Notes under the pieces: model-generated | What the model was told of the DNA's origin: nothing | What the model saw: only the letters and a program-made list of their open reading frames with translations | Databases searched by the model: none | Position numbers and translations under genes: made by a program | In this document: positions 1,570 to 63,607 of the stretch, in pieces | How positions within the stretch are numbered: position 1 is the stretch's first letter | Layout: each line of letters begins with the position of its first letter | Assembly: GCA_026874595.1 (NCBI GenBank) | Contig: CM049320.1 | Location: 42,604,714 to 42,668,713, forward strand | Length of the DNA stretch: 64,000 nt | Reading direction: 5' to 3' | Origin: Sipunculus nudus | Taxonomy: Eukaryota; Annelida; Sipuncula; Golfingiida; Sipunculidae

Positions 1570-1575
1570 TTTATT
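1570..1575 (-). promoter_or_regulatory. Poly(A) signal of EF-hand gene A
   Basis: AATAAA on the minus strand, about 350 bases past the stop codon at 1925-1927. It is kept in the duplicate gene at 8381-8386, which supports use as the cleavage signal. Confidence 0.5.
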
Positions 1576-2971: not shown

Positions 2972-3383
2972 GGTGCGAAGGTCCTATTTACGAATAGCTG
3001 GTTTCTCCTACAAGTAAATCAAAAGAAAAATATTTTTACGTTAACTTTCATGATTTTCTTTATAACAGATATAAAAATGTTACCTCGATATGTTAATGAA
3101 AGAAGTTCTCAACTTAAGAAACGTATGGGAAATGTTTTTAGGAAATATTTATCACAGACAAACGCTTTCATCAATATAATTTATTTAGGGTTTAAAGACT
3201 ATATGTAATTGGAGACTACAATGTATTATGACATCTAAGAATAAGTACTCATTTAATGAAATAGAGAAATGTATTAAAAGAAATTTCATAAGGGTTTAAT
3301 GAACAATGAGGTATAATAGTCCCCTCTTATTAAAATACAGTAACGCTGGAATTGGTCCAATAGCTTGTCAAGAGCATACTTAC

Positions 3384-3446
3384 TGTTGCTGATATGCAGA
3401 TATATTCCCGATGTGTCACTTTGAAGACTCGGGTGCTATATATAAG
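3384..3446 (-). promoter_or_regulatory. TATA box and 5' UTR exon of EF-hand gene A
   Basis: On the minus strand CTTATATATAG (3446-3436) sits about 50-60 bases before a strong donor, CAACA then GTAAGTATGC (exon end 3384). This gives a short untranslated first exon. The 5' UTR intron ends at an acceptor TTGTAG (exon restart 3007), 36 bases before the start codon. The same layout is kept in copy B. The transcription start itself is inferred. Confidence 0.65.
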
Positions 3447-5242
3447 CAGAACGCGGTAATTGGGATGAGCTAAGGGTGGGAACATCCAGATGAGACATCA
3501 CGGATATGCGCACGTGTAAGTCGGTCCCATTAGGGGATAAGATGACATGAACGATAAACAAGCTGGGAAAGGACGGCTGAAATACTTTGCTTAACATGGT
3601 TCGGTAATATTAATATTTGTCATCAATTACAGCATTTTATAATGGGCAACAGAATATTAGCTGATTTGTAATAAAGTCCAAAGTATAAACCTCCATGATG
3701 AATGTCGATACTGGTGCCTTACAGTTCTGTTCGGATTAGTAGTCTCTAACATTTATATACAAATATACAAATATGAATAAGTACATATATTAGACAGCAG
3801 AATGAATGTCATTCCAAAAGGATCAATGAATATGGAAGCACAGATTTCTCAATGGATATACAAAATTAAGTACTCTGAAAATCTGAAGATTTTTCTGGCG
3901 AGTAAAAACGTGAAGATATGTAGTAACTGGGAACACGTGTCCAAAAACGTGCATATGTACTTATTTGATGTCAGTGACCTAGTGACCTCAGCACTGTCCA
4001 ATATGGAGATAAGTATAAGGGAACGGCCGGGTCGGGTTTGAACAAATTCCATTTTGGTGGTAGCTCACGTTGATATATGGACACTGTTTGGCTTAGGCGC
4101 GCATTTATTATTTATAGCTATCACAAAGGCTATCTTACTTTGTCATATAAATAAGGATTGACTTTACTCATTATGCATGTCATAACAACTTCAAGATTTC
4201 CTACAGGTAATGGCAATCGTAGTAAACCCTTTTCCAAGAGACTTCAAGTAACAGGAAAAGAGCTATAAAACATTGTTATTTTCGATTGAAAATATCTTGA
4301 TTAAAACAAGCGACCCCGTCGGTCCCTAAGGCCTGGTGTATGGAGGCCAGGAATAATCCATTTTTGAAGCAAGAAAATTTAATGATGATTTCAAGGAGTG
4401 ATTGACTGGGAATGCAGGTAATTTAGTATATAAGTTGTGCTTATCTGCTAGCCAATAGTGTATGTGACAGAGTCTAATGGACAATGGGCGAGATATGTGT
4501 GTGCATGGGGAAAAAGCAGCCAGATATGACCTCGGGTTAATGCTTTAGGTTCCTTTGCACCATTTATGTAACGATTCAGTCCCATATTTTAGTTAACTAA
4601 AGATGACACCGTCACTTGATAATGTTCAAAATTCCAGGTTAACAGGTGTTACCTTTACGAAAAAAAATGACAAATAACAAAACGGGCGACGAAGAAATAA
4701 AAAATATATGAGGAATTTTTGGCTTTCGCTTTTGCATGTACCTTTACACATTCGTATAACCTGTTTTATCCAACGGTAAACATCAGTGTTTGCGGGAATC
4801 AATTTTTCCTCACAAAAGATATACGAGGAAACATTTATGACGATTATTTCAAGTTAGACCGGAAAAATCATGGTTTCATTTTTGCTGTGAACTGAATAGC
4901 ATACAAGAAAACATAACTAAGAAAAGATATATGAGATTTATTCCAAAATCAAACTGAAACATGAAGAACGCTCAGCAATTGTTTGGCGTTACAGTCCGTC
5001 TTCATTTTGCTTGAAAAAAAAATCACCTTATCCGATTCCAGTATCTTTGAAGATATAACATCCGAAATAGTCGCAATAAAAGGCCGTTAAGTAATGTTAA
5101 TGTTGGACAACCGACGGTTAAAGCGAATGAAATCTGATAAAATGTTCCTAATAAAGAAAGGTGGTCTTTGAAAGCGGAAAAGATCATAGCAAAAATTAGG
5201 ATTTTCCACTGGAAAACTGTGGCTCACAATATTGTGGCGATT
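3447..5242. other. Upstream flank of EF-hand gene A
   Basis: No gene is seen. Two blocks here, 3478-3489 (GGGAACATCCAG) and about 4017-4029 (AAGGGAACGGCCG), recur in the same order in copy B and in the 2389-bp units at 15-22 kb. They mark a conserved upstream region that may hold regulatory sites. Confidence 0.5.
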
Positions 5243-6189
5243 TAACACGCGCAATAAAAAGTCAAAACCCATCATTTATCGAAAGCACGTATGACGTCAT
5301 ATTCTTTAAAATTCGGCACAAAACACAAATCCAGTTTTCATTTTATTTGTGGTCTTTTTTCGTTGTCCGTCAGTGTGACAGTTATAAGTCTATCACACAT
5401 GATTTATGATCATTTAATTTATATTCAGTAAAAAATATTACTATGTACAACATTAACACCTTAGAATTTTTAGACAGATACAAACATTGTAAAAAAGCAG
5501 TATTCCAACCAGTCCTGATAAAAAGTTTTATTTGAGTCAGCTATCAGTTCTTCAGAAATGTCACTGACCTTTTGCTTGATTTCACTACAACTTATCTGTT
5601 TGTCAGTACAATGACACACTGAAGCTCCGGTATTTATAAACATTCTTGTAATTAAAACATAGGTTTTCAAATACCTGCTGGTATGTTTTTTGTTTTATTT
5701 TTTATATAAAGTGAGTGGCGTGCTTTTGTTTTTTTAAGTCTGCGACAGTTACTAAGTTAATTTTATAACAACAAATAACAACCGTCTGAAAGTCTGATTA
5801 TTCAAAACATTATTACAGCAAATGTGCTCGTTTAATTGTTTTGAGTAAGTGATTTTGTTAAAACTATGTACTTTAATAGACCAATTACGTTTTTTCATGA
5901 TACTCTTGTTTCCTACTTAAAACATTTCCCCGGAAATGCCATTTACCTTTGTACACTTTAATATACCTATGTATGATGGAGCAACCTATATCTCATTATG
6001 ATGGGCCCTTATGTTTCCGTTTTAGACGGCATAAATAAATACAGCAATTAAGTGAGTTTCCTAGATGTAGGTACATGGATTACTATCTAACATGGATACC
6101 TTTTCTGTTGGTCAAGCTACTTTCGTCATTCAGCTCTTGGATATTTGTTTTATCCTGACACCAGATATTTGTATTTACCACTGCAAATT
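5243..6189. other. Unique AT-rich spacer between the two copies
   Basis: No coding potential, repeat family or RNA gene was recognised. Short open frames here show no codon pattern or known motif. Confidence 0.4.
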
Positions 6190-6545
6190 TGTTTATGGCA
6201 ACTCGACTATCCAAATCCTCTGCTTTAAAGACTTACGAGGGTACAGAACTATGCTGCAATGATTCTGACTGGTAGTCGTAAACAGTCGGCGTATAAAGTT
6301 TAAATGTGCCATGCTTGTATTCAAAGCTCAACATCAAATCGCCCCTGCTTACTTGCAAGACCTAATCCAGTCATATGTGCAAAATCGTCACCTGACATCA
6401 AGAACTCCTTCATGTTCCAATAACAAAATTATCACTTATTGCCCCGAGAGCCTTCAGCGTCGCGGTACCAGATGTGTGGAACATTCTTCAGATCGAACTC
6501 AGACGAACTGATAAACTTAAGATATTTTTGATCAAGGAATAGTAT
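6190..6545 (+). mobile_element. LINE 3' fragment (C-terminal end of ORF2, CR1/L2-like)
   Basis: Translated pieces read like the conserved tail of a CR1/L2-type LINE reverse transcriptase. They run from a QNYAAMILTGSRK-like segment, through LVFKAQHQIAPAYLQDLIQ and YVQNRHLTSRTPS, to SVAVPDVWNILQIELRRTDK and LKIF. The reading frame shifts at least once between these blocks, so this is a dead 5'-truncated copy. It lies just before the start of duplication copy B. Confidence 0.75.
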
Positions 6546-6805
6546 GATTAATTGTGATGAACACTATGTTTTTCCTATTGATAATGACCTAATTTCAGTA
6601 CAATATGTTCTGCATAATTTAAATCCAGTTAATATTATCTCTTTTTTCTCACTACTTTTTTACATCTCTCACTGTATTTTAAATAGCAATCTATAGCACA
6701 ATTTGTAAATAGACGCTTAATAAAATTAATTATTTTACAATTATTGAATACGCGCCAAAACAAAGTTTTACGGATACTATGTTTTTGACCGAGTTCCGCC
6801 GCCGC

Positions 6806-7906
6806 GACGTTCGTTTCCGAAATATAATTCTGATACCACTGGACAGTTTTTTCCGACACTTTACACGATTATCGGATTACATGTGAACTGGTGCCAAAAT
6901 AATTCGCGTTGACCTAGGACCTTTCCTCTATCCAGTGCGTCCATTTTTGCATATGTTTAGACAGATGAAGTCACATATCTTCGGACTCGTTTGACCAATC
7001 GGGAAAAAAATGTATGCACAAATGTAGCCCTTGGGTAGCTTTATACAAACATGTAAAATGGTGGGGCCACCTGCAACCATTTTTACATAGCGTCCATCTG
7101 TTCAACTGCCTTGGGATAAAATCACTCATATCTCTGCAGTGAATGTACTTATCCACCTGAAATTTTGCATTCAGACGTTCAGGCTGCAGACATCCAGGCT
7201 TATATCTAAGGACTGCTTTGACGTATCCTCCAGAAAGGTTCCATGTGTATACATCTCACATAGCTCTTTATCATACACAAAACTGGTGGCGCCACCTGCA
7301 ACCATTTTTGCACAGCGTCCGTCTGTTTGTCTGCCTTGGAACAAAATCACTAATATCTCGGCAGGGGTTTGACTTATCTGCCTAAAATTTTGCATGTATA
7401 TACATCTTGGATAGCTTTCTCGATTTTGTGGCAGGTGGTGGCACCTACTTTCACGTTCAGGCTGTCGACATCCAGGTTTATATCTCAGGAATGGTTTGAC
7501 GTATCCTCCTGAGATTTTGCACGTGAATAGATCTCACATACCTTTTTATCATACGCAAACTGGTGGCACCTCCTGCAACCATTTATACAAAGCGTCCGTC
7601 TGTTTGTCTGCCATGGGATAAAATCACTCATATCTCGTCAGTAGTTTGACTTATTTGCCTAAAGTTTTGCATTTGTATACAACTTGGATAACTTAATGGA
7701 TTTGTGGCATATGGCGCCACCTACATACACATTTTGGCTGCAGACATATTGCTACGTGTTGCTACTATGCAAAACTCCTCTCTTTATTTCCCCTTGCTAC
7801 TCAAATCCATGCCCACTCTGGTTTCGGCGGATACACGTAGTCTCTTGTCGACTACCCGTATTCTAGTTATTATTATTATTTTGTTAGCTGGCTATAGATA
7901 GGCCAA
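6806..7906. repeat. Dispersed repeat with internal monomers (copy B)
   Basis: This is the duplicate of the repeat at 1-1100, with only a couple of differences over 1.1 kb, far fewer than in the introns further along. That points to recent gene conversion or a constraint on this end. Confidence 0.6.
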
Positions 7907-8380
7907 AATAGCGTTTGGGATCTTCCGTCAGCTCTACTCAAATCGTTACTACCCAAACAGAACAAAATAACAGATACATACAGTCTCTCATGTTAGTGTG
8001 GGCAACACGCTGCTACATGTTTGGTGAAACCCTGATTATCGCTACTCTTGACCCTTACCAGTAAATAAAAATCCAGCAATCTAGAAGGCAGAAATGCAAC
8101 AGTTTAGTTTGCATAAGTAACGTGTATCATACTTATATTCCGTAAAATGCGTTTTCTAGGAGACCTAATACTCGTCCCTTTTTTCCTTTTGAACATTTAT
8201 ATGCTGCAATCTGAAAGGGATTCATCCATTAGTTCAGTTTGCAAGAAACACCCTCACTCGTATTCATGTTCCGCAAGGATCACTTGTTTGAAGTGGCAAA
8301 TGATATTTGTTCTTTGGGATATAGGGAAATGATATGGAAATGAACATAAACACCCGGCAACATGGTGAGTATACATTTTG

Positions 8381-8386
8381 TTTATT
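8381..8386 (-). promoter_or_regulatory. Poly(A) signal of EF-hand gene B
   Basis: AATAAA on the minus strand, about 350 bases after the stop of gene B, matching the signal of gene A. Confidence 0.5.
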
Positions 8387-8736
8387 TGTAAAAAAAATTA
8401 CTCAGGAGCCAGCTAAGCTTCACATGTCTCGTCAACCACCACTTCATAAAGCTGAAAAGATAGAACAATTTATGCTTTTGCTTTTCTTGAAACGTTTTCT
8501 TTTAGATAGACATATTCATACTGAAACGGGTCATAGCTATGTATCACAGCAACCAGAAAATGAGATGTCTATAACATGTCGTGAACGTTTTGTGCTATTT
8601 AATTCACTCGCGTCCAATGCGTGTAATGTAACCAGTTGTATATTATATGCTAATATCTTTTAGCATATTTATCAATAGGTTTTGAAAGCAGATGTTGCTA
8701 GTTACTGTGACTGTTTAAGCCATGTGCTAATATAGA

Positions 8737-8894
8737 TTAGGGTGTTTGACTTACTGCATTCCAGGACTCCAACCACTCGCTCTTACCAACTGCGCCCTTT
8801 CCTGTAAACAGAAATAGTAAGAAGTTATAATTACCTATAATTTTTTTAAACACACACTGTCCAAGAGAAAATTGGTCTACATTTCCCTATAAAT

Positions 8895-8951
<57 letters not shown>

Positions 8952-9841
8952 GGCAAATAATTTTTCATCATATATTGTTACATCAGCATCTTGTAAATTG
9001 TATCAGATTATGCACTAGTTATCGCCCACCTTCGGGGTCGATGACTGTTTCCCAAAGGGCTGCGACATCCGCATCCTCGATTACATCAGGGTCCCCAAGG
9101 CCTAGAGTAGCGATAACATCAAAAGCAGCATCTCCTTCAGCCTCACACAGGCCGGTGGCCGTGGTGAACACAGGAACGAAAGTGGCCCTATCCACGGTGC
9201 CATCTAAAATGAAAGTATATTTGTCCTCAAAGGAAACGTTACATAGCTTGTCAAAATATTGATTCACGTGATGCATTCATGTAACTTGTACCTAGTTTGG
9301 CAAGATGAAATTTTCTTAATGATTTGGTCTAATAGAAAGTGTTCAGGCTTCCAACATGGCACCCAGATTTATTAGTTTGGCACTCACTTTCATTCTTGGT
9401 ACCATTGATCAAACTCTCTAATTCGCTTCTCTCCATCAGGTTATTTCCATTCAGGTCAATCACACAGAATCCATTGCATCCTGTCTCGTTGTTTCTGTTG
9501 TTTGTTGAGCCAGCACAATCATCACAGTTGAAAACACTATTGAACAAAGAATATAATACATTATATCACTACTGACAAAGGCATGCACAAAATTTATATA
9601 TTTTTCCTTTTCCTGTGTGCCATTGGAATTAGAATAATGTTGAATATCAGAATCAACTAGAAATATTGGTTGCGATAAAAACCTGATATGTAAACATTTA
9701 TATATTAAGAATTTACCAAACGAATATAGATAAATACCAACAGAAAAATCGCTAATTGCAAAAATAGAATGGTACATACTCCTGACAAAATACAGGGCTC
9801 ACAACACACACAAGAAAAGCGACAATTACGGCAGACTTCAT
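8737..9841 (-). CDS. Secreted EF-hand protein, gene B (149 aa, four coding exons)
   Basis: Coding exons on the minus strand are 9841-9780, 9536-9388, 9203-9030 and 8801-8737, with the same lengths and phases as gene A. The protein differs from A at only three residues: Ile9 to Phe and Leu14 to Val in the signal peptide, and a Val to Gly change in the last exon (GKGAVGKSEW). The 149-nt exon with the good EF-hand loop has four differences, all silent, and the 174-nt exon has one, also silent. This pattern suggests both copies are functional and the mature protein is under purifying selection. The exon-4 donor is GTGGGC here against GTGAGC in gene A. Function is as for gene A: a small secreted, probably calcium-binding protein of unrecognised family. 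Confidence 0.85.
8897..8950. repeat. (TA)n microsatellite
   Basis: About 26 TA units in the intron between exons 4 and 5 of EF-hand gene B. Gene A has only a short TA run at the same place (2084-2100), so the run expanded after duplication. Confidence 0.95.
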
Positions 9842-10302
9842 GGTCAAAAGGTCCTGATTACGAGAAGCTGGTTTCTCCTACAAGCAAATCAAAAGAAAAA
9901 TATTTTTACATTTCCTTTCATAATTTTCTTTATATCAGATATAAAAATGCTACCTCGATATGTTAATGTAGGAAGTTCTCACCTTAAGAAACTTGAAGGA
10001 AATTTTTTTTAGGAAATAATATTCACCGAAAAACGCTTTCATGAATATTTATATAGGGGTTGAAGACTATATGTAATTGGATACTACATTGTGTTATGAC
10101 ATCCAAGAATTAGTACTCATTTAATGAAATAGAGAAAGGTATTAAAAGAATTGTCATAAGGGTTGAATAAACTATAAAGTATAATAGTCGCCTCTCCTTA
10201 AAATACAGTTACGGCGGAATTGGTCCAATAGCTTGTCAAGAGCATACTTACTGTTGCTGATCTGCAGATAGAATTCTGATGTGTGACTTTGAAGACTCGG
10301 GT

Positions 10303-10312
10303 GCTATATATA
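10303..10312 (-). promoter_or_regulatory. TATA box of EF-hand gene B
   Basis: CTATATATAG on the minus strand, at the position equivalent to the TATA box of gene A, upstream of the conserved donor of the 5' UTR exon. Confidence 0.6.
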
Positions 10313-12343
10313 GGCAGAACGCGGTAATTAGGATGAGCTAAGGGTGGGAACATCCAGCTGAGATATCACGGAAATGCGCACGTGTAAGTCGGTCCCATTA
10401 GGGGATAAGATGACATGAACGATAAACAAGCTGGAAAAAGACGGCTGAAATACTGCGCTTAACATGGTTTGGTAATTTTAAAATTTGTCATTAATTACAG
10501 CATTCAATGGAAACAGAATATTAGCTGATTTGTAATAAAGTCCAAAGTATAAACCTCCATGATGAATGTCGGTACTGATGCCCTACAGTTCTGTTCGGAT
10601 TAGTAGTCTACAACATTTATATACAAATATACAAATATGAATAAGTACATATATTAGACAAAAGAATGAATGTCGTTCCAAAATGATCAATGAATATGGA
10701 AGCACAAATTTCTCAATGGATATACAAAAAAAAGGACTCTGAAAATCGTTTTATTTTCCTAGCAAGTAAAAATGTGAAGATATGTAGTAACTGCGAACAC
10801 GTGTCCAGAAACGTGAAAATGTACTTATTTGATGTCAGTGACCTAGTGACCTCAAGCACTGTCCAATACGGAGATAAGTGTAAGGGAACGGCCGGGGCGG
10901 GTTTGGACAAATTCCGTTTTGGTGTTAGCTCACGTTGATATAAGGACACTGTCTGGCATAGGCGCCCATGCATTATTTATAGCTATCACAATGACTATTA
11001 AACTTTGTCATATGAATAAGGATTGACTTTACTCATTATGCATGTTATAACAACTTCAAGATTTCCTTTCAGGTAATGGCAATCTTAGTAAACCCTTTTC
11101 CAAGAGACGTTGTGTAACAGGAAAAGAGCTATAAAACAGTGTAATTTTTCATTAATAATATCTTGATTAAAACATAATGGCACCCTGTCGGTCCTCAAGG
11201 CCTGGTGTATGGAGGCCAGGACTAATCCGTTTTCTGAAGCAAGAGAACTTAATGATGATTTCAAGGAGTAATTGACTGGGAATGCAGTTTATGTAGTATA
11301 TATTTTGTGCTTATCTGCTAGCCTAGAGTGAATGTGACAGGGTCTAATGGAGAGTGGACGAGATATGTGTGTGCATGGGGAAACAGCAGCCGGAAATGAC
11401 TTCGGGTTCATGCTTCAGGTTCCTTTGCACCATTTATGTAACGATTCAGTCCCATATTTTAGTTAACTAAAGATGGCACCTTCACTTGATTTTGTTCAAA
11501 ATTCCAGGTTTACAGGTGTTACCTTGTCAAAATGACAAATAACAAAACGGGCGACGAAGGAATAAAAAATATATAAGGAATCTTTGGCTTTTGCTTTTGC
11601 ATGTACATTCACACATTCGTATTACCTGTTTTGTCCAACAGTAAACATCAGTGTTTGCGGGATCCAATTTTCCTCACAAAAGATATATGAGGAAACATAT
11701 ATGACGATTATTTCAAATTAGACCGAAAAAATAATGGTTCCATTTTGATGAGAAATATATAGCATGCAAGGAGACATAACTAAGAAAAGATATTTGAGAT
11801 TAATACAAACATCAATCTGAAAACAAGAATTACGCTCAGCCATTGCGTGGTGTAACAGTCCGTCTTCGTTTTTGCTTGAAAAAAAAACATGAAAGGCAGA
11901 CCCTTCACTTTCACTCTGCAGCTATTGTTTGCTAAGATCAGGGAAGTCCGTACCCTTGGCCTTGGGAATAAACTTGTGCCTCTTAAGCTAACGTTTACTT
12001 AATATTACATCACCTTACTCGATTGAGAAACCTTTAAAGATATAACATCCGAAATAGTCGCAATAAAAGGGTATAAAGAGATATTATAATATTGGTTGGG
12101 ACAACCGGCGGTTAAAGCGAATGAAATCTAATCAAATGGTCCTAAACATGAAAGGTTGTCTTTGAAAGCGGAATAAACCATGTAGCAAAAATTAGGATTT
12201 TTCCACTGGAGCAATATTGCTGACAATGATGTGCCGATTTAACACAAAGGAATTTCCACACAAAGATCCTTAGAAGAACCAAACAATGTGACATATTTTA
12301 ACATTTGAAAGATTTCGACGACACATGCTACGTAATATAAATA

Positions 12344-15094: not shown

Positions 15095-18000
15095 ATGCGA
15101 GGATCCTGGATATCGCCGCATATTTTGCAGTTATATAGCGTTTTACTAAAGATAAGGAGAGTTGCGGGCTACTCAACTTCGACAGAGCTTATCTTCATCT
15201 AATGCCTTATACGCGGAGACCAATATGACTTGCCTTGGAGGCATAGGTTGGGGTCTACATCCTTCGCCCTCTACCTGGACAAGTGACTTTATGCTCCCCT
15301 CTGATCCCTATAGGGCCGCCTACTTTATCATTCGGGCAATAATAAGTAAGTCCACTTATTGTGTAGGAGGGGTGTATCTATTAAGGGCATATGGAATATT
15401 CAGCGAAAGAACGTATATAAGTAAAAGGCATCTTCGCTGTTAATATACAAAGATTTCCCAAATAGAAGCGGTTGATCTACTGGCTGAACTCGGCGACCAG
15501 GCTTAGCTGCGATGGGAACATCCAGATGTGAAACCACGAGTGTTCCGCATATGTTATAGCACCCCCGTTCAGGGACGGAATGGCATGACCAAGAAGCAAG
15601 CTGGCAAGGACTCCTAATATACGTACCACCGCACCCAAACAGACAAATTTAAATTCAGAGATTATATACACCATTTGGTTATTTTCGACAGGAGTTTAGA
15701 GGAAAAACAGGTTACTAAAGGATGCATCTTGTACCTTGCGTCATTTAGAATTGTAAAAACCGTTGTTTCATAAAGACGAACGCAAATCTTTGTAACATAT
15801 CTAAGCTATAATGCAGTGAAGATTTAAGGCCGTATAGGGACTATACGTCCTCTCCAATAGTGTTACCTAAAAGTCTGAGTTAGTAAATTTATTAAATAGC
15901 AGAATTAATATGTTATTGTTGCAATAATTAATAAATGCAGTCTCACGATCACTCTACCTGAAAATAGCTAAATGTCAACTCTTTATTTCGGATGCTTTGT
16001 GGTAAATATAGGCGCCTGTGTGATAAATGTGTCAAGCATGTGTCAAGTAACGTGCACATGTTACCTTACTATCTAAGTGACCTAGGGGCGATCAATATGA
16101 AGATAAATTCAGGGGAACGGCCGTGGCGGTCTTGTACCTTTTCCAGTTTGTCTTTAACTGGTTTGGATATAAATAGTCCTGTTTGTCACACACGTAAATT
16201 GGTTCACGTAATATTTTAATTTAAAAATTGTTAAACAATCCTCTCAAGGTTATTCAACATGGCTATCTAAAAATAAAAAAATAAAATAAAATTAGCTGAT
16301 TTCCTCATGTTGATTTAATGAAAACTCATGGTGTTTGTATATTTTTTTTGTATATTTTATAGCTGTTGAACTGTAATTTTTTTTAGCCTTCCCTTAGAAA
16401 CACTTTATTTCAATGTAAAAGTGAACAATCGTCAATCCATAGGCGTCCCTTTACTTTCAAACTGTTTTTATGTTAACCGAAGACATCGAACAGTTTAGGA
16501 ATACAGTTGTTTTTGCTGGGAAACATTTATTTTAATTCCCTGCGGTTCGTGTTATCTAATTGTTGAAAGATGAGCCTAACAGAAGTCTGAGCCTGCTTAA
16601 CGTTAAAAATGGTTTAGAGGAGGACATGGCTGGTAATTAATGCCACAACAGGTAACGTTTTGCATTTTCGGTGAGAATACAGTCTTTGTGCTATTCATTG
16701 ACATGTATATTTTGCAATGGACGGGGTGTGATCAATGTGTGCACATCGTTTGACCGTGTTCATGCCTGTAGCCTCGTGACGTCATTTTTGCAAATATTTC
16801 GTCCGACATTTAATTTTACAAAAGGACAATAGCACAATGCCTAGTTATACATAATAATCTAGAGTTATATAGCGTACCTCTGTAAGGAAAGAATGACAAC
16901 AACAGAGACGTAGATACATTATCCTTCGATCTGAATACATTTTGACAAGTTCCCATTAAATATGTTAATGCTATTCAGCGTTTCTTGGATCGGATATTTC
17001 ATCGTGAAAGACATGTCAGCAAAACATAATATAGCAACGCATATATTGAAGAAAAGCATTCGGTACCTTTATATATCGGGTGGATTATTAACAAGCGTCC
17101 CATCCGTCGCAAACTTGCTGGAAGTGCACCCACCAAATAAACATTTGAGATTTCAAAACTCTTTCACATTAAGGCTTCCAGTTATTAAGACTTGAAGAAA
17201 AAAACACGGTTTTTCAGTTATGCTACTCCAAGATTCTTGAATTCAAGGAGGCCAAATGTTTGAGACCTTTTAAAAAACTGTGATACATGTGCCTCTTTAA
17301 TGAAGTTTACTTCAGTAACAAATATTACAGAATCTTAGACAGTTTCTTTGAAGATATAATACACTTAACATGTATAACACATTTGATTTATGACGGGATC
17401 ATCTGACGTTAAATCAAATGAAATCTAACAAAATGTCCGTGAAGACAAGGGAGGAAGAGTTACCTACAACGAGGTAACTACCTATGCGAGGATCCTGGAT
17501 ATCGCCGCATATTTTGCAGTTATATAGCGTTTTACTAAAGATAAGGAGAGTTGCGGGCTACTCAACTTCGACAGAGCTTATCTTCATCTAATGCCTTATA
17601 CGCGGAGACCAATATGACTTGCCTTGGAGGCATAGGTTGGGGTCTACATCCTTCGCCCTCTACCTGGACAAGTGACTTTATGCTCCCCTCTGATCCCTAT
17701 AGGGCCGCCTACTTTATCATTCGGGCAATAATAAGTAAGTCCACTTATTGTGTAGGAGGGGTGTATCTATTAAGGGCATATGGAATATTCAGCGAAAGAA
17801 CGTATATAAGTAAAAGGCATCTTCGCTGTTAATATACAAAGATTTCCCAAATAGAAGCGGTTGATCTACTGGCTGAACTCGGCGACCAGGCTTAGCTGCG
17901 ATGGGAACATCCAGATGTGAAACCACGAGTGTTCCGCATATGTTATAGCACCCCCGTTCAGGGACGGAATGGCATGACCAAGAAGCAAGCTGGCAAGGAC

Positions 18001-21000
18001 TCCTAATATACGTACCACCGCACCCAAACAGACAAATTTAAATTCAGAGATTATATACACCATTTGGTTATTTTCGACAGGAGTTTAGAGGAAAAACAGG
18101 TTACTAAAGGATGCATCTTGTACCTTGCGTCATTTAGAATTGTAAAAACCGTTGTTTCATAAAGACGAACGCAAATCTTTGTAACATATCTAAGCTATAA
18201 TGCAGTGAAGATTTAAGGCCGTATAGGGACTATACGTCCTCTCCAATAGTGTTACCTAAAAGTCTGAGTTAGTAAATTTATTAAATAGCAGAATTAATAT
18301 GTTATTGTTGCAATAATTAATAAATGCAGTCTCACGATCACTCTACCTGAAAATAGCTAAATGTCAACTCTTTATTTCGGATGCTTTGTGGTAAATATAG
18401 GCGCCTGTGTGATAAATGTGTCAAGCATGTGTCAAGTAACGTGCACATGTTACCTTACTATCTAAGTGACCTAGGGGCGATCAATATGAAGATAAATTCA
18501 GGGGAACGGCCGTGGCGGTCTTGTACCTTTTCCAGTTTGTCTTTAACTGGTTTGGATATAAATAGTCCTGTTTGTCACACACGTAAATTGGTTCACGTAA
18601 TATTTTAATTTAAAAATTGTTAAACAATCCTCTCAAGGTTATTCAACATGGCTATCTAAAAATAAAAAAATAAAATAAAATTAGCTGATTTCCTCATGTT
18701 GATTTAATGAAAACTCATGGTGTTTGTATATTTTTTTTGTATATTTTATAGCTGTTGAACTGTAATTTTTTTTAGCCTTCCCTTAGAAACACTTTATTTC
18801 AATGTAAAAGTGAACAATCGTCAATCCATAGGCGTCCCTTTACTTTCAAACTGTTTATATGTTAACCGAAGACATCGAACAGTTTAGGAATACAGTTGTT
18901 TTTGCTGGGAAACATTTATTTTAATTCCCTGCGGTTCGTGTTATCTAATTGTTGAAAGATGAGCCTAACAGAAGTCTGAGCCTGCTTAACGTTAAAAATG
19001 GTTTAGAGGAGGACATGGCTGGTAATTAATGCCACAACAGGTAACGTTTTGCATTTTCGGTGAGAATACAGTCTTTGTGCTATTCATTGACATGTATATT
19101 TTGCAATGGACGGGGTGTGATCAATGTGTGCACATCGTTTGACCGTGTTCATGCCTGTAGCCTCGTGACGTCATTTTTGCAAATATTTCGTCCGACATTT
19201 AATTTTACAAAAGGACAATAGCACAATGCCTAGTTATACATAATAATCTAGAGTTATATAGCGTACCTCTGTAAGGAAAGAATGACAACAACAGAGACGT
19301 AGATACATTATCCTTCGATCTGAATACATTTTGACAAGTTCCCATTAAATATGTTAATGCTATTCAGCGTTTCTTGGATCGGATATTTCATCGTGAAAGA
19401 CATGTCAGCAAAACATAATATAGCAACGCATATATTGAAGAAAAGCATTCGGTACCTTTATATATCGGGTGGATTATTAACAAGCGTCCCATCCGTCGCA
19501 AACTTGCTGGAAGTGCACCCACCAAATAAACATTTGAGATTTCAAAACTCTTTCACATTAAGGCTTCCAGTTATTAAGACTTGAAGAAAAAAACACGGTT
19601 TTTCAGTTATGCTACTCCAAGATTCTTGAATTCAAGGAGGCCAAATGTTTGAGACCTTTTAAAAAACTGTGATACATGTGCCTCTTTAATGAAGTTTACT
19701 TCAGTAACAAATATTACAGAATCTTAGACAGTTTCTTTGAAGATATAATACACTTAACATGTATAACACATTTGATTTATGACGGGATCATCTGACGTTA
19801 AATCAAATGAAATCTAACAAAATGTCCGTGAAGACAAGGGAGGAAGAGTTACCTACAACGAGGTAACTACCTATGCGAGGATCCTGGATATCGCCGCATA
19901 TTTTGCAGTTATATAGCGTTTTACTAAAGATAAGGAGAGTTGCGGGCTACTCAACTTCGACAGAGCTTATCTTCATCTAATGCCTTATACGCGGAGACCA
20001 ATATGACTTGCCTTGGAGGCATAGGTTGGGGTCTACATCCTTCGCCCTCTACCTGGACAAGTGACTTTATGCTCCCCTCTGATCCCTATAGGGCCGCCTA
20101 CTTTATCATTCGGGCAATAATAAGTAAGTCCACTTATTGTGTAGGAGGGGTGTATCTATTAAGGGCATATGGAATATTCAGCGAAAGAACGTATATAAGT
20201 AAAAGGCATCTTCGCTGTTAATATACAAAGATTTCCCAAATAGAAGCGGTTGATCTACTGGCTGAACTCGGCGACCAGGCTTAGCTGCGATGGGAACATC
20301 CAGATGTGAAACCACGAGTGTTCCGCATATGTTATAGCACCCCCGTTCAGGGACGGAATGGCATGACCAAGAAGCAAGCTGGCAAGGACTCCTAATATAC
20401 GTACCACCGCACCCAAACAGACAAATTTAAATTCAGAGATTATATACACCATTTGGTTATTTTCGACAGGAGTTTAGAGGAAAAACAGGTTACTAAAGGA
20501 TGCATCTTGTACCTTGCGTCATTTAGAATTGTAAAAACCGTTGTTTCATAAAGACGAACGCAAATCTTTGTAACATATCTAAGCTATAATGCAGTGAAGA
20601 TTTAAGGCCGTATAGGGACTATACGTCCTCTCCAATAGTGTTACCTAAAAGTCTGAGTTAGTAAATTTATTAAATAGCAGAATTAATATGTTATTGTTGC
20701 AATAATTAATAAATGCAGTCTCACGATCACTCTACCTGAAAATAGCTAAATGTCAACTCTTTATTTCGGATGCTTTGTGGTAAATATAGGCGCCTGTGTG
20801 ATAAATGTGTCAAGCATGTGTCAAGTAACGTGCACATGTTACCTTACTATCTAAGTGACCTAGGGGCGATCAATATGAAGATAAATTCAGGGGAACGGCC
20901 GTGGCGGTCTTGTACCTTTTCCAGTTTGTCTTTAACTGGTTTGGATATAAATAGTCCTGTTTGTCACACACGTAAATTGGTTCACGTAATATTTTAATTT

Positions 21001-54700: not shown

Positions 54701-57700
54701 GGTGAACACGTCACAGGGCCTTGTGAACCAGACAGTCACCAAGAGGACCCGCTACCTCGGATCTACTGACGGCGCAAACATACTTGGTAACAATCAACTC
54801 TTCACAGTTCTAAATATAAACCAATCATTTAATGAAACACCAGGTCGTTAAGAAAAGAGGATGAGGTGGTTAATCTATACGTAAAAGCCTTAATCGTCAA
54901 GGAATTTAGGGGATTTTTATCTCAGCTGACTGAAAGTCAACTGAGGTATAGGACTGGCGCTTTGTACAATGTCCGACCGGCTGTCAGGCCGTCCGGCCGT
55001 CCGTCAGCGAATCGTAACCGCTGGTCCTAGAACCTCTAAGTGAACATCCGGGGAGGTCTATAAAACATCTCCTTTGAAACCTGAAATTAGGTCAGTGCAC
55101 CCAATATCCTCCGAGCTAGAGGGGTTGTAAGTACCCGAGAGTAATATAAAAATTGATACAAAACCTCCAGTATCTTGATATATAATGCATGGAGTGCCAT
55201 GAATCTTGCCTTGAATATTGACCATGCTTAGTTTGTCAGTTTCCGAAAACTGGTGGCGCCACCTGTTATTTTTTCATATTTTTTTACGATTTTTTTTTCT
55301 GTTTTTGAGACCGTTTAATGACAGCATTTATGTCAGTTTCTCAGCTGTGGTTTTGTCAAGTATCCAGAAACCCAGTGTTTATTGATTATGATAGGTGTCT
55401 TCATTTCCTGAAGAATGGTGGCGCCCCCTGTATTTTTATCAATATTTTATGCATTTTTCCTTTATTTTGATACTGCCAGATTATAATGATACTTTCAGCT
55501 TCGCGCCTGTAGTTTCATCTGTGTCCTGATAACTTTTGTTGTTTTTTAGGACCCCACTTGAATAAGCGGATGCCCTATATCAGTCACCCTGTCCGTCCGT
55601 CTGTTCGTATTTTCTATATGTCCGCCAAATTTGTTTCCTGATGATAACTCAATTTGATTGACATATGGGTTTCAAACTTGACATATACTAGTATATGGCC
55701 CGCCGCTAACGCAAGAACTCACTTGATTTTTGGGTCATTAGGTCAAAGGTCAGGGACACAGAACCCACATATTCAGCAAAATTGTGGATGCATTTTAAGC
55801 CAAACATTTTATCCCAAACCTTCCATCTTGCATATATAAGTGTCCTGCCAATAGGTGAAGAATCTGATTGATTTTGGGTCACAAGACCAAAGGTCAAGTT
55901 CATAAGGGTCATCTGTCAATATATTTGTTTCGGGATGATAACCCCAGTTTGGATTGACATATTGGTTTCAAACTTGACTTATATATGACCAACCAATAAT
56001 ATTTGAACCTTTGGATTTTGGGGTCATGAGGTCAAAGGTCAGGGTCACGGGACCAACTTATTTTAAAAGATTGTGGATGCATTTTAAGCTAAACTTTTTC
56101 ATTCGAAACCTTCCATCTTGCATATATAAGTGTCCTGCCAATAGGTGCAAAATCTGATTGATTTTAGGTCACAAGACCAAAGGTCAAGATCATAAGGGCC
56201 ATCTGTCAACATATCAGTTTCCAGATGATAACTCCAGTTTGGATTGAAATATCGGTTCGAAACTTGAAAAATTTACGGTCCACCACTGAAGTAAGAACTC
56301 TTTTGATTTTGGGGTCATGAGATCAAAGTTCAAAATCACAGCATCCACTTCTTTAAAAAGATTGTGGATGCATTTTGAGCTAAACTTTTCATCCCAAACC
56401 TGCCACTTCAACGTGGACGGATACGTTTAATTTTGGGGTCACTAGGTCAGAGGTCAAGGTCACATGACCCATCCATTCACAAATTAGTTTATAGGTGATA
56501 ACTTCAGTTTGGGAAGACAGGTTGGACCCATACACAGGACCCATATTTGAAAAAGCTCATAAACCTATCCTTATAGACAAATTCAGCTGAGCGTCGAGAC
56601 CCTTGGGTCCCTAGCCCTTTGAACAAATTACTTCTGATCCGCGGCCCAGTATATTCTAAACCCTATTCCAAATTGTTTTTGCTGATGAAGGCTACTACAA
56701 CCTGGGTTTCCATATATTCCCAGAGCAGGTTCGCGTCAGCATATCATCAGCACAATCCATCAAACTTGATTGACCTCACCATGAACTTTACATGACCTTA
56801 ATAGCATATTCATTTAATGAATAATCATGAGCATAACTGTTCCATGCAGCTAATCAGGTCGCCGATATAACTGTAAACTGTGAGTCACCTGACCATGATA
56901 AATCTGCGTAATTTTGAAGACCTCTCCCTAACAGAACACATGTAGTCTGTACCAGTATCATTGTCGGCATGTTTTCCTGGATATTTTTTGTATAAATTAG
57001 ACAGTATAAAAAGTTCTAGGCCAAAGGTTGCAGGGGACATTCCGTAATAATAATGTCTTACCTGCATGGCACGAAATTCGTATGAGACAAATAACCGAAT
57101 ATATTGCAAGACGATTCACAATGACTGCAAGATATTCATCAGTGCAGCGATTCCAGTCGATGACGTCAGCCAATGCAACGTCTACGTCATCGACCTTTGT
57201 GACCTCATCATCGCTGTCGCAAGGAAGACTATCTGTGTAGGAGCATTTTCGGGGCTCATTATAATAATAAGGCCAAAGGGGCGGGGTTTCTGGTGGTTCA
57301 ATTTATTATGTAACACTGCAGAATAACAGGCATGATAATGGTGTATTTATGACCGTTGCCTGTTAGTGGCATGAATAGACGAATCAATCCAAAAGGCGTC
57401 TTCTTTTAAAATCACTGCCTGATAAAACAGAGAGTATGGAGAATACAGTTTCAGCGTTTTACTAAGTTTTGTAGCAAAGAGTGCAAACTGAACTCGGTAC
57501 CTTACTGCTCGGGTTTGCTTGGAATATTGGGTAATTGCGTTATCCGTACACATCGCGCACTAAGCACTACGGATGAGGAAAAAATTTGCGGACACATTGA
57601 AGAACATCTTTAATAAACAGGTATTTTCTGTTATGGAAAGCAGGTTTGTTTACTATTTTCAGGTCTCATATTCTGCAGCATGGTGTTTGGTATAGGAAGC

Positions 57701-60700
57701 AGTCTCGCCAAAGAGAAAGGCAGAGCATTTATAGACTTCTTCACCTCCTGCAGCGAGGTGGTGCTGATGGTCCTCAGGGCGTTCCTGTGGTGAGTATACT
57801 ACATACAACTTCAGTGAGGTGGTGCTGATGGTCCTCAGGTAGTTCCTGTGGAAAGTATTTCTTACATATAACCTCAGTGAAGTGGTGCTGATGGTCCTCA
57901 GGTAGTTCCTGTGGAAAGTATTTCTTACATATAACCTCAGTGAAGTGGTGCTGGTGGTCCTCAGGGCGTTCCTGTGGTGAGTATACCACATATAACCTCA
58001 GTGAGATGGTGCTGATGGTACTCAGAGCGTTCCTGTGGTAAGTATACTACATATAACCTCAGTGAGGTGATGCTTATGGTCCTCAGGGCGTTCCTGTGGT
58101 AAGTATACTACATATAACCTCAGTGAGATGGTGCTGATGGTCCTCAGGGCGTTCCTGTGGAAAGTATACTACATATAACCTCAGTGAGGTGGTGCTGATG
58201 GTCTTCAGGGCGTTCCTGTGGTAAGTATACTACATACAACTTCAGTGAGGTGGTGCTGATGGTCCTCAGGGCGTTCCTGTGGAAAGTATACTACATATAA
58301 CCTCAGTAAGGTGGTGCTGATGGTCCTCAGGGTGTTCCTGTGGTAAGTATACTACATATTGTTACGAAGATAAATTGTTTAGGTGAAAATACTGGGCCGA
58401 TCCAGAATTCGAACCCATGTTGTTGGCCCACAAGTCCGGCGTACCAACCACTTCGCTAGAAAAGCCAAGCTTACCTAGCCAGACAGTTTGGTTCGCTTTT
58501 ATGTCACCCCGTAACACACCACCTCTTAAGAGCGTTCTGCTATCAGAACAAGACTAATTATCCCGGAGTCACACTTTAGTGAGCTTATTCCCTGGGCCAC
58601 AAAGGTTACCGTCATCCTGGAAGAGCCCCCATTTCGTTACGAAGACAAATTGTACAGGGGCAACATTGACCGATCCCGGTTTCGAACCCATGTCGGTGAG
58701 GCACATGTCCGGCGTTCCAACCGCTTCGCCAGTAAAAAAGCAAGCTTGACTAGCGAGAGAGTTGGTCCGCGTTTATGTGCACCCCGTAAGAATATAAACT
58801 CAGTGAGGTGGTGCTGGTGGTCCTCAGGGCGTGCCTGTTGTAAGTATACTATATATTACCTCAGTGAGGTGGTGCTGATAGTCCACAGGCATTCCTGTGA
58901 TAAGTATACTAGATATAACCTCAGTGAGGTGGTGCTGATGGTCCTCAGGGCGTTCCTGTGGTAAGTATACTACATATAACCTCAGTTAGGTGGTGCTGAT
59001 GGTCCTCAGGGCGTTCCTGTGGTAAATATACTACATATAACCTCAGTGAGGTGGTGCAAATGGTCCTCAGGGCGTTCCTGTGGTAAGTATACTACATGTA
59101 ACCTCAGTGAGGTGGTGCTGATGGTTTTCAAAGCGTTTCTGTGGTAAGTATACTACATATAATCTCAGTGAGGTGGTGCTGATGGTCCTCAGGGCGTTCG
59201 TGTGGTAAGTATACTACATATAACCTCAGTGAGGTGATGCTTATGGTCCTCAGGGCGTTCCTGTGGTAAGTATACTACATATAACCTCAGTGAGATGGTG
59301 CTGATGGTCCTCAGGGCGTTCCTGTGGAAAGTATACTACATATAACCTCAGTGAGGTGGTGCTGATGGTCTTCAGGGCGTTCCTGTGGTAAGTTTACTAC
59401 ATACAACTTCAGTGAGGTGGTGCTGATGGTCCTCAGGGCGTTCCTGTGGAAAGTATACTACATATAACCTCAGTAAGGTGGTGCTGATGGTCCTCAGGGT
59501 GTTCCTGTGGTAAGTATACTACATATTGTTACGAAGATAAATTGTTTAGGTGAAAATACTGGGCCGATCCAGAATTCGAACCCATGTTGGTGGCCCACAA
59601 GTCCGGCGTACCAACCACTTCGCTAGAAAAGCCAAGCTTACCTAGCCAGACAGTTTGGTTCGCTTTTATGTCACCCCGTAACACACCACCTCTTAAGAGC
59701 GTTCTGCTATCAGAACAAGACTAATTATCCCGGAGTCACACTTTAGTGAGCTTATTTCCTGGGCCACAAAGGTTACCGTCATCCTGGAAGAGCCCCCATT
59801 TCGTTACGAAGACAAATTGTACAGGGGCAACATTGACCGATCCCGGTTTCGAACCCATGTCGGTGAGGCACATGTCCGGCGTTCCAACCGCTTCGCCAGT
59901 AAAAAAGCAAGCTTGACTAGCGAGAGAGTTCGGTCCGCGTTTATGTGCACCCCGTAAGAATATAAACTCGGTGAGGTGGTGCTGGTGGTCCTCAGGGCGT
60001 GCCTGTTGTAAGTATACTATATATTACCTCAGTGAGGTGGTGCTGATAGTCCACAGGCATTCCTGTGATAAGTATACTAGATATAACCTCAGTGAGGTGG
60101 TGCTGATGGTCCTCAGGGCGTTCCTGTGGTAAGTATACTACATATAACCTCAGTGAGGTGGTGCTGATGGTCCTCAGGGCGTTCCTGTGGTAAATATACT
60201 ACATATAACCTCAGTGAGGTGGTGCAAATGGTCCTCAGGGCGTTCCTGTGGTAAGTATACTACATGTAACCTCAGTGAGGTGGTGCTGATGGTTTTCAAA
60301 GCGTTTCTGTGGTAAGTATACTACATATAATCTCAGTGAGGTGGTGCTGATGGTCCTCAGGGCGTTCGTGTGGTAAGTATACTACATATAACCTCAGTCA
60401 GGTGGCACTGATGGTCCACAGGGCGTTCCAGTGGTAAGTATACTACATATAACCTCAGTGAGGTGGTGCTAATGGTCACCAGGGCGTTCCTGTGGTAAAT
60501 ATACTAAATATAACCTCAGTGAGGTGGTGCAGATGGTCCTCAGGGCGTTCCTGTGGTAATTATACTACATGTAACCTCAGTGAGGTGGTGCTGACGGTTT
60601 TCAAAGCGTTTCTGTGGTAAGTATACTACATATAATCTCAGTGAGGTGGTGCTGATGGTCCTCAGGGCGTTCTTGTGGTAAGTATACTACATATAACCTC

Positions 60701-63607
60701 AGTCAGGTGGCACTGATGGTCCACAGAGCGTTCAAGTGGTAAGTATACTACATATAACCTCAGTGAGGTGGTGCTAATGGTCACCAGGGCGTTCCTGTGG
60801 TATGTATACTACATATAACCTCAGTGAGGTGGTGCTAATGGTCACCAGGGCGTTCCTGTGGTATGTATACTGCAAATAACCTCAGTGAGGTGGTATTGAT
60901 GGTTCTCAGTGCGTTCCTGTGGTAATTATACTACGTATAACCTCAGTTGGAATGTACTGATGGCCCCCAGGGCCTTCCTGTGTTAAGTTTACTACATACA
61001 ATCTCAGTAAGGTGGTGCTGATGGTCCTCAGGGCGTTCCTGTGGTTAGTATACTACATATAACCTCAGTGAGGTGGTGCTGATGGTCCTCAAGGCGTTCC
61101 TGTGGTAAGTATACAACATATAACCTCAGTGAGGTGGTGCTGATAGTCCTCAGGGCGTTCCCGTGGTAAGTATACTACATATTACCTCAGTGAGATGGTG
61201 CTGATGGTCCTCAGGGCGTTCCTTGGTAAGTACACTTCATATAAACTGACTGAGTTGCTGCTGGTGAGCTCCCGCCCTTCCCGGCTCGTCGGTGTCCAGC
61301 CCAAAAGTGACATATTTCGTCATTCCGGCCGTCAAATCAGACTGGAAGGTTTGTCGAGGCTAAATTCTAATATCTAAGTCACGCTAACGGTAAATTGTCA
61401 CTCAAAATTTTGAAATGTAACAGGCTTTACCTTATCGCCGCGATTTAATGCTTGTTCCTCAACAAAACATCCAGTTTGATCCCCCAAAAATTATACATGA
61501 ATAGTGTAAATGATTAGCGACGGTGTAAGCATCGCTTTTATGTAGAAATCAGAGAGTAATTGATATTTTGTTGAGGATAATATCGCTGCCAGAACGTGTA
61601 ACGTGTTACATTTCATAATTCTGACGAGTATTTACCGGGACAAGCAGTCCGGTCTGATCTGACGGCCTGTAGAACCGGGTGTGTCACTTTTTTGCTGGAA
61701 ATTGACGGGCCTGATAGAAGAGAGTTGGGGGGGGGGGGGGGGGGGTGCTGTGTTTGTGAAGCCCATTAAGCGTTCAGTTTTCGACTAGTGTCCAGATCAA
61801 GCATAGCGCCAAATCCTTCTTTGTAAGCTCTTAATTTCATACCCTATAGTATTTTAGATTTCATCTTTGATCTTTTCACGGTTTATAGTAACCTAATTAC
61901 TTGCAAAGTTACTAAAAACACCTGTTCCTTCATTCACATAAGGTTGCAGTGAATGCGATGTTTTTATGCACTATTTTTTCATAATATGCATGATTTTAAT
62001 TTTTCATCTTACGTTTGTCAGATTTAATGTGTATTTATGTATGTATATGATTTTATTTTTTTTAATGTTAATGTATTATATATGTACAACTTTCACAGGG
62101 CCCAGTGGATGAACAGAATTACTTCGGAACAAGTAACCCTGTATAAATATATTGAAATAAAAAAAGAATAATAATAATAAAGTGTTGATGGTGCTCAGCT
62201 CGAGCCTGAAGTAATTATACATGTACTACATATAACCTCAGTGGGGTGGCACGGATGGTCTTCGGGACGTTCATGTGGTACGTGTACTACATATGACCTC
62301 CGTGAGGTGGTACCTAATTGCACGTATGCTCCAGTGGATATTTGCAGCCTGATCGCGGGTAGCGTACACAGACGGACGGTGTGTTTGCAGATACGGTCCA
62401 ATGCATATATGCAGCCTGCTCCAGGGGTAGCTATCACCCACTGTTTATCGGTTGCTAAAGGCATGAAACGCAAACAATTCTTATTTTATTGTTGTTTCTT
62501 GTTTGCGTTACAGCTCCTAAGGTGAAGAGTTTACCCTCTTAGGCTTGGTCAGATCTGACCAAAGTGGTTCAGACGACGATATTCGGCGTTCAGCATGAGG
62601 AATTGCAACAACCCTTACAGATTTTGCATATCAGTTGTGCTGACTCAGTTGAGATAAAATTGGTAACTTCATGTTCAATATTTATTAAAAAAATTGCGCT
62701 TACTTTCAAGAAAACCAGATTGTCCCCATCGGCTCTTGTTTACAGCCTGGAAAGGCATGCTGGGAAGGCCAAGGACGATCTATTCTTTGGTGACGTCATG
62801 GGGATCTATTTGGGAAACACTTATAGGGTATTATTGGGTAATTTGCATAAATCCTCCTTTTAATATGCATTAGATTCCAGTTTGGGGTTGTGTCGAATAA
62901 GTGGGTAACTCTCCACCACAGGTGTTTGGACTCCATTCCTTTGAATGGAGGCTGAATGTCCGGGCTAGTTTATAGGCTGCTTCAGTGGGTATTTGAAGCC
63001 TTGTACAGGCAAACTGCTGGTGCAGTTGTAGGTATGCTCCAGTGGGTATTTGCAGCCTTGTAGAGACAGACTGCTGGTGTATTTGTAGGTACGCTCAAGT
63101 GGGCATTTGCAGCCTTGTAGAGAGAGACTGCTGGTGTATTTATAGGTATTCTCCGGTTGGTTATTTCATCCTTGTACGGGCAGACCGCTGGTGTATTGGT
63201 AGGTGTGCTCCGCTGGGTATTTTCAGCCTTGTACAGACAGACTGCTGGTGTATTTGTAGGTATTCTCCGGTTGGTTATTTCATCCTTGTACGGGCAGACC
63301 GCTGGTGTATTGGAAGGTGTGCTCCGCTGGGTATTTGCAGCTTTGTACAGACAGACTGCTGGTGTATTTGTAGGTACGCTCCAGTGGGTATTTGCAGCCT
63401 GATCGCTGGCAGCATTGCGTCTGTGACTGACCTGGGAATCATTTTCGCCCGCCTCGGGTTCCTGGTCCTGACAGTTAGTGTTGGCGTGGTCATTCACCAG
63501 CTCATCATGGTCCCTCTCATCCACTTTGTGTTCACCAGAACTAATCCGTTCCCGCTTATGCTTAGACTTCACCGGGCATGGCTAATCGCTTTTTCTTCTA
63601 CAAGCAC
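51742..63607 (+). CDS. SLC1 family (EAAT-like) glutamate/amino acid transporter, exons 1-7, 3' end outside window
   Basis: Coding exons are 51742-51895, 52928-53002, 53331-53538, 53959-54001, 54663-54786, 57663-57789 and 63374-63607. All have GT-AG introns and consistent phases, giving about 321 residues so far. Blocks match excitatory amino acid transporters in order. TM1 is LLLLLTISGILVGFALGFGI. TM2 is FPGEIFLRLLKMMIIPLIVC, followed by SVISGTASLD. TM3 ends TIRPGE. Next come DLIRNIFPDNPMTATFRQ, an extracellular loop with sequons NTS and NQT, DGANILGLIFCSMVFGIGSS, and the TM5 start FLWYAPVGICSLIAGSI. The final exon in view ends FTRTNPFPLMLRLHRAWLIA. These sodium-coupled plasma-membrane carriers clear glutamate or move neutral amino acids. 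The hairpins and the substrate-binding NMDGT core lie beyond the window, so EAAT versus ASCT-like specificity cannot be read. The exon 6/7 intron is exceptional. Confidence 0.93.
54920..56600. repeat. Dispersed repeat in SLC1 intron 5
   Basis: Bounded by TCAGCTGACTGAAAGTCAAC on the left and TTCAGCTGAGCGTCGAGACC on the right, with GTCCGTCC runs near 54990 and 55580. Inside are roughly 300-bp units carrying GTGGATGCATTTTAAGC, CTTCCATCTTGCATATATAA and AGGTCAAAGGTCA (near 55750, 56030, 56330). This is the GGTCAAGGTCA-type dispersed repeat common in molluscs. Confidence 0.6.
56601..57662. other. Rest of SLC1 intron 5
   Basis: No exon or repeat family was recognised. Short open frames at 57028-57326 lack splice signals in phase with the gene. 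Confidence 0.4.
58360..58797 (-). mobile_element. Dimeric tRNA-like element (SINE-like), first copy
   Basis: On the minus strand there are two related ~160-bp modules, each with a tRNA-like A box (TAGCGAAGTGGTTGGTACG; GGCGAAGCGGTTGGAACG) and B box (GGTTCGAATTC; GGTTCGAAACC). A ~115-bp linker separates them. Each module ends CTTCGTAAC. On the plus strand the outer module begins TGTTACG and ends CGTAACA. This could be a tRNA-derived SINE with two heads or a miniature TG...CA element; I cannot decide. It breaks the 61-bp array in mid-unit. Confidence 0.6.
59527..59965 (-). mobile_element. Dimeric tRNA-like element, second copy
   Basis: This is a near-identical copy of the element at 58360-58797, at an offset of 1167. 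Because the flanking minisatellite units match too, it came by duplication of the array, not by a second insertion. Confidence 0.75.
61246..62180. other. Unique centre of SLC1 intron 6
   Basis: No repeat of either array is seen. It contains a G tract (about 61726-61745). A stretch ending 62085-62182 (ACAGGGCCCAGTGG, CTGTATAAATATATTGAAAT, then AATAATAATAATAA) looks like the 3' tail of a LINE or other retroposed element. Confidence 0.4.
62181..62460 (+). repeat. Relict block joining donor-type and acceptor-type units
   Basis: Two or three worn donor units (GTGTTGATGGTGCTCAG, CCTCAGTGGGGTGGCACGG with TGTGGTACGTGTACTAC, and CCTCCGTGAGGTGGTACC) run directly into CGTATGCTCCAGTGGATATT and TGCAGCCTGATCGCGGGTAG. 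This matches the start of exon 7 further than the acceptor array units do. A second weak copy follows (TTTGCAGATACGGTCCAATG). It sits between the two arrays. Confidence 0.75.
62974..63415 (+). repeat. Acceptor-side minisatellite: eight copies of a 57-bp unit spanning splice acceptor and exon start
   Basis: Units start at 62974, 63031, 63088, 63145, 63202, 63259, 63316 and 63373 (exact period 57). Each has TGGTGTATTTGTAG, then GTACGCTCCAGTGGGTATTT and GCAGCC, then a spacer from CTTGTACAGACAGACTGC. The last is the true acceptor (AG at 63372-63373) leading into exon 7. All eight keep the AG. Units 4-5 and 6-7 are a duplicated 114-bp pair. As 57 = 19 codons and units 2-8 contain no stop in the exon 7 frame, upstream acceptors would extend exon 7 in frame. 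Confidence 0.93.

Follow-up and report, generated by a model that had tools for sequence, protein, structure and literature searches.

Tandem duplications that span exon-intron boundaries are known in amphioxus, where they have been named "mirages" and where they are reported at 5′ as well as 3′ boundaries in the globin genes BflGb6 and BflGb9 and in Adh3, TnC, and PGBD5, with regular splicing described as undisturbed (PMC3087553; PMC3902484). In PGBD5, according to the same accounts, two exons are affected by repeats of 60 bp and 108 bp. The minisatellite of the human 6-16 (IFI6) gene provides repeats that are said to serve as splice donors (Turri 1995, cited in PMC4526556). Boundary tandem repeats have also been reported to alter gene structure in human segmental-duplication paralogs, and it has been suggested that new introns could arise in this way (PMC2812944). 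Finally, in hTERT, the number of minisatellite copies within intron 6 is reported to influence splicing (PMC3948165).

Here we examined a 64,000-nucleotide stretch of DNA from Sipunculus nudus, which we call the window (C15:42604714-42668713, where C15 is contig CM049320.1), in an assembly of 1.43 Gb and 153 contigs. An SLC1 gene of the glutamate-transporter type in the window carries arrays of 61-bp and 57-bp units at the edges of its intron 6. The initial annotation knew of no description of arrays that carry the exon-intron boundary itself. However, such arrays have been described in the amphioxus reports (PMC3087553; PMC3902484), and those of intron 6 are an instance of this rare phenomenon. 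As in the amphioxus accounts, the duplications are minisatellite-like and both units span an exon-intron boundary, the authentic boundary is kept at the exon edge with the extra copies on the intron side, and AG/GT splice signals are present in many but not all of the repeats (GT in 33/42 on the left and AG in 7/7 on the right).

The locus also departs from its described counterparts in several ways. Few copies are given in those accounts for the amphioxus globins and PGBD5 (up to 7), whereas up to 42 extra copies are found here, and BflGb6 and BflGb9 are described with one boundary each, whereas both edges of one intron are involved here. Unlike the amphioxus mirages as reported, the arrays of intron 6 once abutted, they fill nearly the whole intron in a paralog, and their host gene has spiralian nearest protein relatives. 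The human 6-16 minisatellite is similar in that it lies at an exon/intron boundary and supplies repeated donors. It reportedly involves one boundary only. Its repeat donors are described as being used in transcripts, whereas those of intron 6 are candidate donors whose use would give an immediate stop. The human segmental-duplication paralogs likewise exhibit repeat variation at a boundary in recent paralogs, but the arrays reported there are much shorter (on average 30-bp units in four copies; PMC2812944), and the position of intron 6 is older, since it is common to two other SLC1 genes. In the openly licensed literature, we found no description of boundary arrays in spiralians. What seems to be new is that both edges of one intron are affected, that an intron consists almost only of its own edges, that the copy number is high, that the arrays persisted through a gene duplication, and that the host lies outside the cephalochordates.

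The host gene and its two arrays

Ten coding exons of the gene were found, running from 51742 to beyond the end of the window. Its assignment to SLC1, as first proposed, is upheld by the match of the exon 6+7 peptide to EAAT1 (1.8e-24) and by the match of the protein joined from the ten exons to Pfam SDF (1.4e-84). By sequence similarity, the nearest protein relatives are spiralian and not cephalochordate, with Owenia (53%) and Lineus (54%) closest and mostly molluscs thereafter among the best 120 of 251 relatives. Exons 6 and 7 are open and EAAT-homologous out to their outermost splice sites, which are a donor boundary of CTGTG/GTGAGT at 57789/57790 and an acceptor boundary of TTTGTAG/G TAC at 63373/63374. 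Both sides of the W/Y junction between these exons are covered in 118/120 relatives, and residues are inserted there in 0/118 (by alignment, with five relatives viewed in detail). Because these 118 relatives are without an insert, the conserved protein requires the outermost donor/acceptor pair. As a separate matter, the TM7 motif in exon 8 of the window gene reads SANGS, versus NADGS in four spiralian relatives, and the aspartate has been lost. Transport by the product of this gene may differ.

On the left side of intron 6, TRF reports a period-61 array at 57751-61263. Unit counting gives 43 copies in total, namely the authentic exon 6 end and donor (57751-57811) followed by 42 repeats of 60-63 bp that reach 61247, in agreement with the approximately 43 copies of a 61-bp unit that had been claimed. 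Each unit consists, in order, of CAG, 36 exon-derived bases, GTAAGT, and 16 further intron-derived bases. Either GTAAGT or GTGAGT occupies the donor position in 25/42 repeats, and AG is present in 41/42. Because GT has been lost from 9/42 repeats, including the two that adjoin the real donor, not every repeat is a donor. The array is interrupted by two non-array inserts (Table 1). No tRNA was found in 58300-60000 and Rfam gave no match for the insert, and the possibility that the arrays or their surroundings hold a tRNA or another known structured RNA was therefore rejected. A block of ~1167 bp, made up of 12 units together with one insert, occurs as two tandem copies, and thus only 30 of the repeats are non-redundant.

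On the right side, TRF reports a period-57 array at 62978-63400. Seven copies, the first of them partial, precede the real exon 7 start and bring the total to the eight that had been counted originally. Each unit joins the intron end (..ctgctggtgtatttgtag) to about 26 bases of exon 7. The two units do carry the boundaries of the same intron 6, as had been noted, with the left unit crossing CTGTG/GTGAGT and the right unit crossing TTTGTAG/G TAC. The placement of the arrays at two separate ends of the intron holds for the main arrays, but not for the decayed left units that stand directly before exon-7-start copies at 62182-62430. These decayed exon-7-start copies (62324-62430) extend further into exon 7 than the 57-bp units do. 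Given this longer reach and their spacing of 67 bp, the 57-bp unit seems to have been derived by deletion from one of 67 bp.

Table 1. Positions, in window coordinates, of the features of intron 6 and its flanking exons.
Feature	Position	Strand	Description
Exon 6	57663..57789	+	coding; phase 2 end CTG TG; PDB/tblastn match, boundaries CAG/../GTGAGT
Authentic 5′ splice site GTGAGT	57790..57795	+	assigned by homology
Left mirage array	57812..61247	+	~61-bp units repeating the end of exon 6 with its 5′ splice site, 42 extra copies
Higher-order block copy 1	58060..59226	+	12 units + insert
Non-array insert	58360..58800	+	two related halves ~275 bp apart (repeat families D16, D17); copy at 59527-59968
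Higher-order block copy 2	59227..60394	+	1162/1167 aligned bases identical to copy 1
Inverted-repeat (MITE-like) stretch between arrays	61283..61711	.	arms 73 nt (73% complementary), 51 nt (75%)
Relic, left type	62182..62299	+	two decayed left units
Relic, right type	62324..62430	+	pair of decayed exon-7-start units spaced by 67 bp, immediately 3′ of left relic; old array junction
Right mirage array	62975..63373	+	57-bp units carrying the 3′ splice site and the start of exon 7, in seven copies
Exon 7	63374..63607	+	authentic 3′ splice site is the AG at 63372-63373, assigned by homology

A downstream paralog and the age of the arrays

A second SLC1 gene is located 35 kb downstream on the same contig, with its exon 6 at C15:42697664. 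Six aligned exon blocks give a dS of 0.238 and a dN of 0.025 between the two genes, and outside the arrays their alignment is limited to exons and short flanks. Intron 6 of the paralog is 605 bp long, of which 569 bp consist of left units (255 bp) and right units (314 bp) arranged back to back. The junction between these arrays is identical to the relic junction in the window gene at 25/30 aligned bases, and 0/2000 shuffles reach the score of this match. Because this junction is common to the paralog and to the window relic, it shows that both arrays existed, and abutted, before the SLC1 gene duplication. The proposal of two separate amplifications therefore survives in part: the two unit sequences are indeed unrelated, but the arrays have a shared history as neighbors that precedes the gene duplication.

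Mirages are also characterized by length instability between alleles or somatic cells. The number of extra left copies is 42 in the window gene versus 4 in the paralog, and this difference, which comes from one assembly, demonstrates turnover between paralogs and not allelic variation. In the paralog, an AGTAGG variant is found both at the start of exon 7 and in the repeat that lies two units upstream of it, but in none of the other four aligned repeats (locus positions 1685-1824), which suggests exchange between this exon and the array. Synonymous divergence between the paralogs ranges from about 0.09-0.13 in exons 1-3 versus 0.31 in exon 6 and 0.49 in exon 7, a pattern that might reflect gene conversion in the first exons, among other causes. 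Upstream of the SLC1 gene, at window positions 15095-20172 and 196-11530, there are three copies of a 2389-bp unit and a tandem duplication of ~6.8 kb. The copies of the 2389-bp unit are 100% identical in sampled 300-bp stretches, and the ~6.8-kb duplication is 90-100% identical in sampled stretches. Tandem duplication thus acts at several scales in the window.

Boundary arrays elsewhere in the genome

Boundary arrays are recurrent in this genome, with at least two beyond those of intron 6, because another SLC1 gene (on contig C4) and an SLC6 gene (on contig C16) also have them. In the C4 gene, much of the intron that follows exon 7 is taken up by repeats of a ~77-bp unit, which includes the end of that exon and its 5′ splice site. 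This array yields 37 unit matches, a count that includes the exon itself and decayed or partial units, and AGGT is present in the expected slice in 29/37. In the SLC6 gene (C16:60091700-60092700), the unit of 117 bp is in frame (39 codons), comprises the 3′ splice site and the exon start, and is present in 3.3 copies.

A PF00375 search gave 38 matches, from which 30 loci were taken; together with seven more, 37 loci, several of them overlapping, were scanned for exon copies in their flanks. Among these SLC1-family loci, exon copies were found only at one place on C4 and at exon 7 of the two C15 genes, with one weak 23-base match (E 0.002) left uncounted. The phase-2 intron that precedes exon 7 is also present, without an array, in two other SLC1 genes. 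For PF00209, one boundary array was visible among 120 matches, and this count is to be read as at least one because arrays were detected from repeated matches only. No boundary array was seen by eye among the 95 PF00067 matches, many of which represent single-exon genes, and most of the nine PF00083 matches are long open frames of the kind expected from genes with a single exon. The PF00375 loci include two whole single-ORF genes on high-numbered contigs that are probably bacterial. Contigs C109 and C113 (and C102, C122, C131, and C133) carry complete or almost complete genes for SDF or SNF transporters as single ORFs, as is seen on bacterial contigs, and such high-numbered contigs probably represent symbionts or contamination.

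Splicing of intron 6

We consider it probable that both arrays are inert mirages and that the outermost sites are the ones spliced. Tandem duplications that by chance spanned an exon-intron boundary would have started the minisatellites, and these would then have expanded via slippage, unequal exchange, and block duplication. The first boundary duplications are older than the duplication that produced the two neighboring paralogs, and in the downstream gene nearly the whole intron still consists of the two arrays. In the window gene, the left array would later have expanded, acquired an insert that looks mobile, and undergone duplication of a 1.17-kb block, while the intron would have gained about 0.9 and 0.5 kb between its parts, the first of which holds the inverted-repeat stretch. 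The extra copies would be intronic, those of the left array neutral as far as tested, and the outermost copies, which are joined to the bodies of exons 6 and 7, are most likely the ones kept in use by the spliceosome. Exon definition, which is the pairing of splice sites across an exon, is a general explanation for the choice of an outermost donor. The extra copies may be tolerated because the spliceosome most likely uses the outermost ones, as exon definition predicts, and the main effect would be an intron lengthened via copies of its own edges.

Neutrality was evaluated for the left array alone, over its 30 non-redundant repeats. These contain 67 distinct substitutions, of which 40 fall in exon-derived columns, 26 in intron-derived columns, and one elsewhere, giving densities per column of 1.11 for the 36 exon-derived columns and 1.18 for the 22 intron-derived columns. 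The exon-derived columns carry 13 synonymous changes, 26 nonsynonymous changes, and 1 stop, versus 11.5, 28.2, and 0.3 expected without selection, and a coding role for the left repeats was rejected because of these neutral counts. The donor G and T columns have diverged by 7% and 13%, versus means of 7.4% in the exon part and 6.4% in the intron part. Because substitution density is even, the synonymous and nonsynonymous counts are those of unselected sequence, and conservation of the donors is lacking, the copies of the left array appear neutral as far as tested, with the AG side being less clear. The opening CAG of the unit has remained intact in 30/30 repeats, an outcome with a chance of 0.034 if substitutions were spread evenly (0.11 when AG alone is considered). 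Only on the acceptor side of the left unit, then, would constraint not be clearly absent, and this indication is weak because the CAG was picked out after the fact.

The stop codon that directly follows exon 6 upon read-through of the first donor (TGA at 57791 in the window gene and TAA in the paralog) means that any later donor truncates the protein. Such an arrangement could serve as a poison-splicing switch, wherein inner donors compete for part of the transcripts and array length lowers or tunes output. Indeed, the authentic donor of the window gene matches 7/9 consensus positions, and 23/42 left repeats equal it. The authentic donor of the paralog matches 6/9, and the later ones listed match 7, 6, and 8, such that two are stronger. 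Because so many repeats are as donor-like as the authentic site, and two in the paralog even more so, some use of later donors is plausible; with equal scores, sequence alone gives no reason for the first donor to win. However, conservation at the donor positions does not exceed that found elsewhere in the left unit, and the repeats that have lost GT include both of those next to the real donor. The 38-bp repeats of hTERT are reported to lie >1 kb from exon-intron junctions and to act by RNA pairing (PMC3948165), whereas pairing between the left and right arrays of intron 6 shows no excess over shuffles (z -0.35), and a role for it was rejected on that ground. Left-left pairing is somewhat stronger than in shuffles (z -2.22). 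We therefore regard a poison-splicing switch as unlikely, and its more specific form, wherein the left array is tunable by copy number and its length sets the fraction of productive transcripts, as quite doubtful. If this specific form were true, boundary duplication would provide both a route of intron growth and heritable variation in transporter output.

It is very unlikely that the arrays generate protein isoforms, either through inner acceptors that would add 19 residues per unit or through 36-nt microexons that would add 12. The 57-nt unit does correspond to 19 codons, and 6/6 tested inner acceptors of the window gene are open and in frame. Similarly, 30/42 left units could provide an intact, open AG-36 nt-GT microexon in frame, and the CAG that does not vary among the 30 non-redundant repeats would suit such a role. 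However, 4/4 tested inner acceptors in the paralog shift the frame and lead to stops, the synonymous and nonsynonymous counts of the left repeats match those predicted in the absence of selection, and the 118 relatives exhibit no insert at the W/Y junction. Moreover, neighboring microexons would be only 25 nt apart, which is too short for an animal intron. The initial annotation had raised the prospect that numerous donors and acceptors compete and thereby set up a splicing switch. Later donors lead to an immediate stop, the left repeats look neutral, and the tested upstream acceptors preserve the reading frame of one paralog but not of the other, all of which makes such a switch unlikely.

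Least probable of all is an assembly artefact that inflated the copy number, especially through the tandem-doubled ~1167-bp block with its 1162 identical positions, given that the paralog 35 kb away on the same contig has both arrays but differs in their copy numbers and sequence, that many units differ from each other, and that boundary arrays occur in other genes too; the idea that a simple doubling during assembly explains everything was rejected because the paralog and other loci have the same kind of structure.

The inert mirages that we favor for intron 6 indicate that mirages are not a peculiarity of amphioxus, and that one intron can consist almost wholly of repeated copies of its own two edges. 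The locus would also provide a natural test of splice-site choice, in which more than 20 donors have equal local strength and only the first yields the known protein. Furthermore, it offers a dated case of intron growth, one that is older than a gene duplication with an exon dS of about 0.24.
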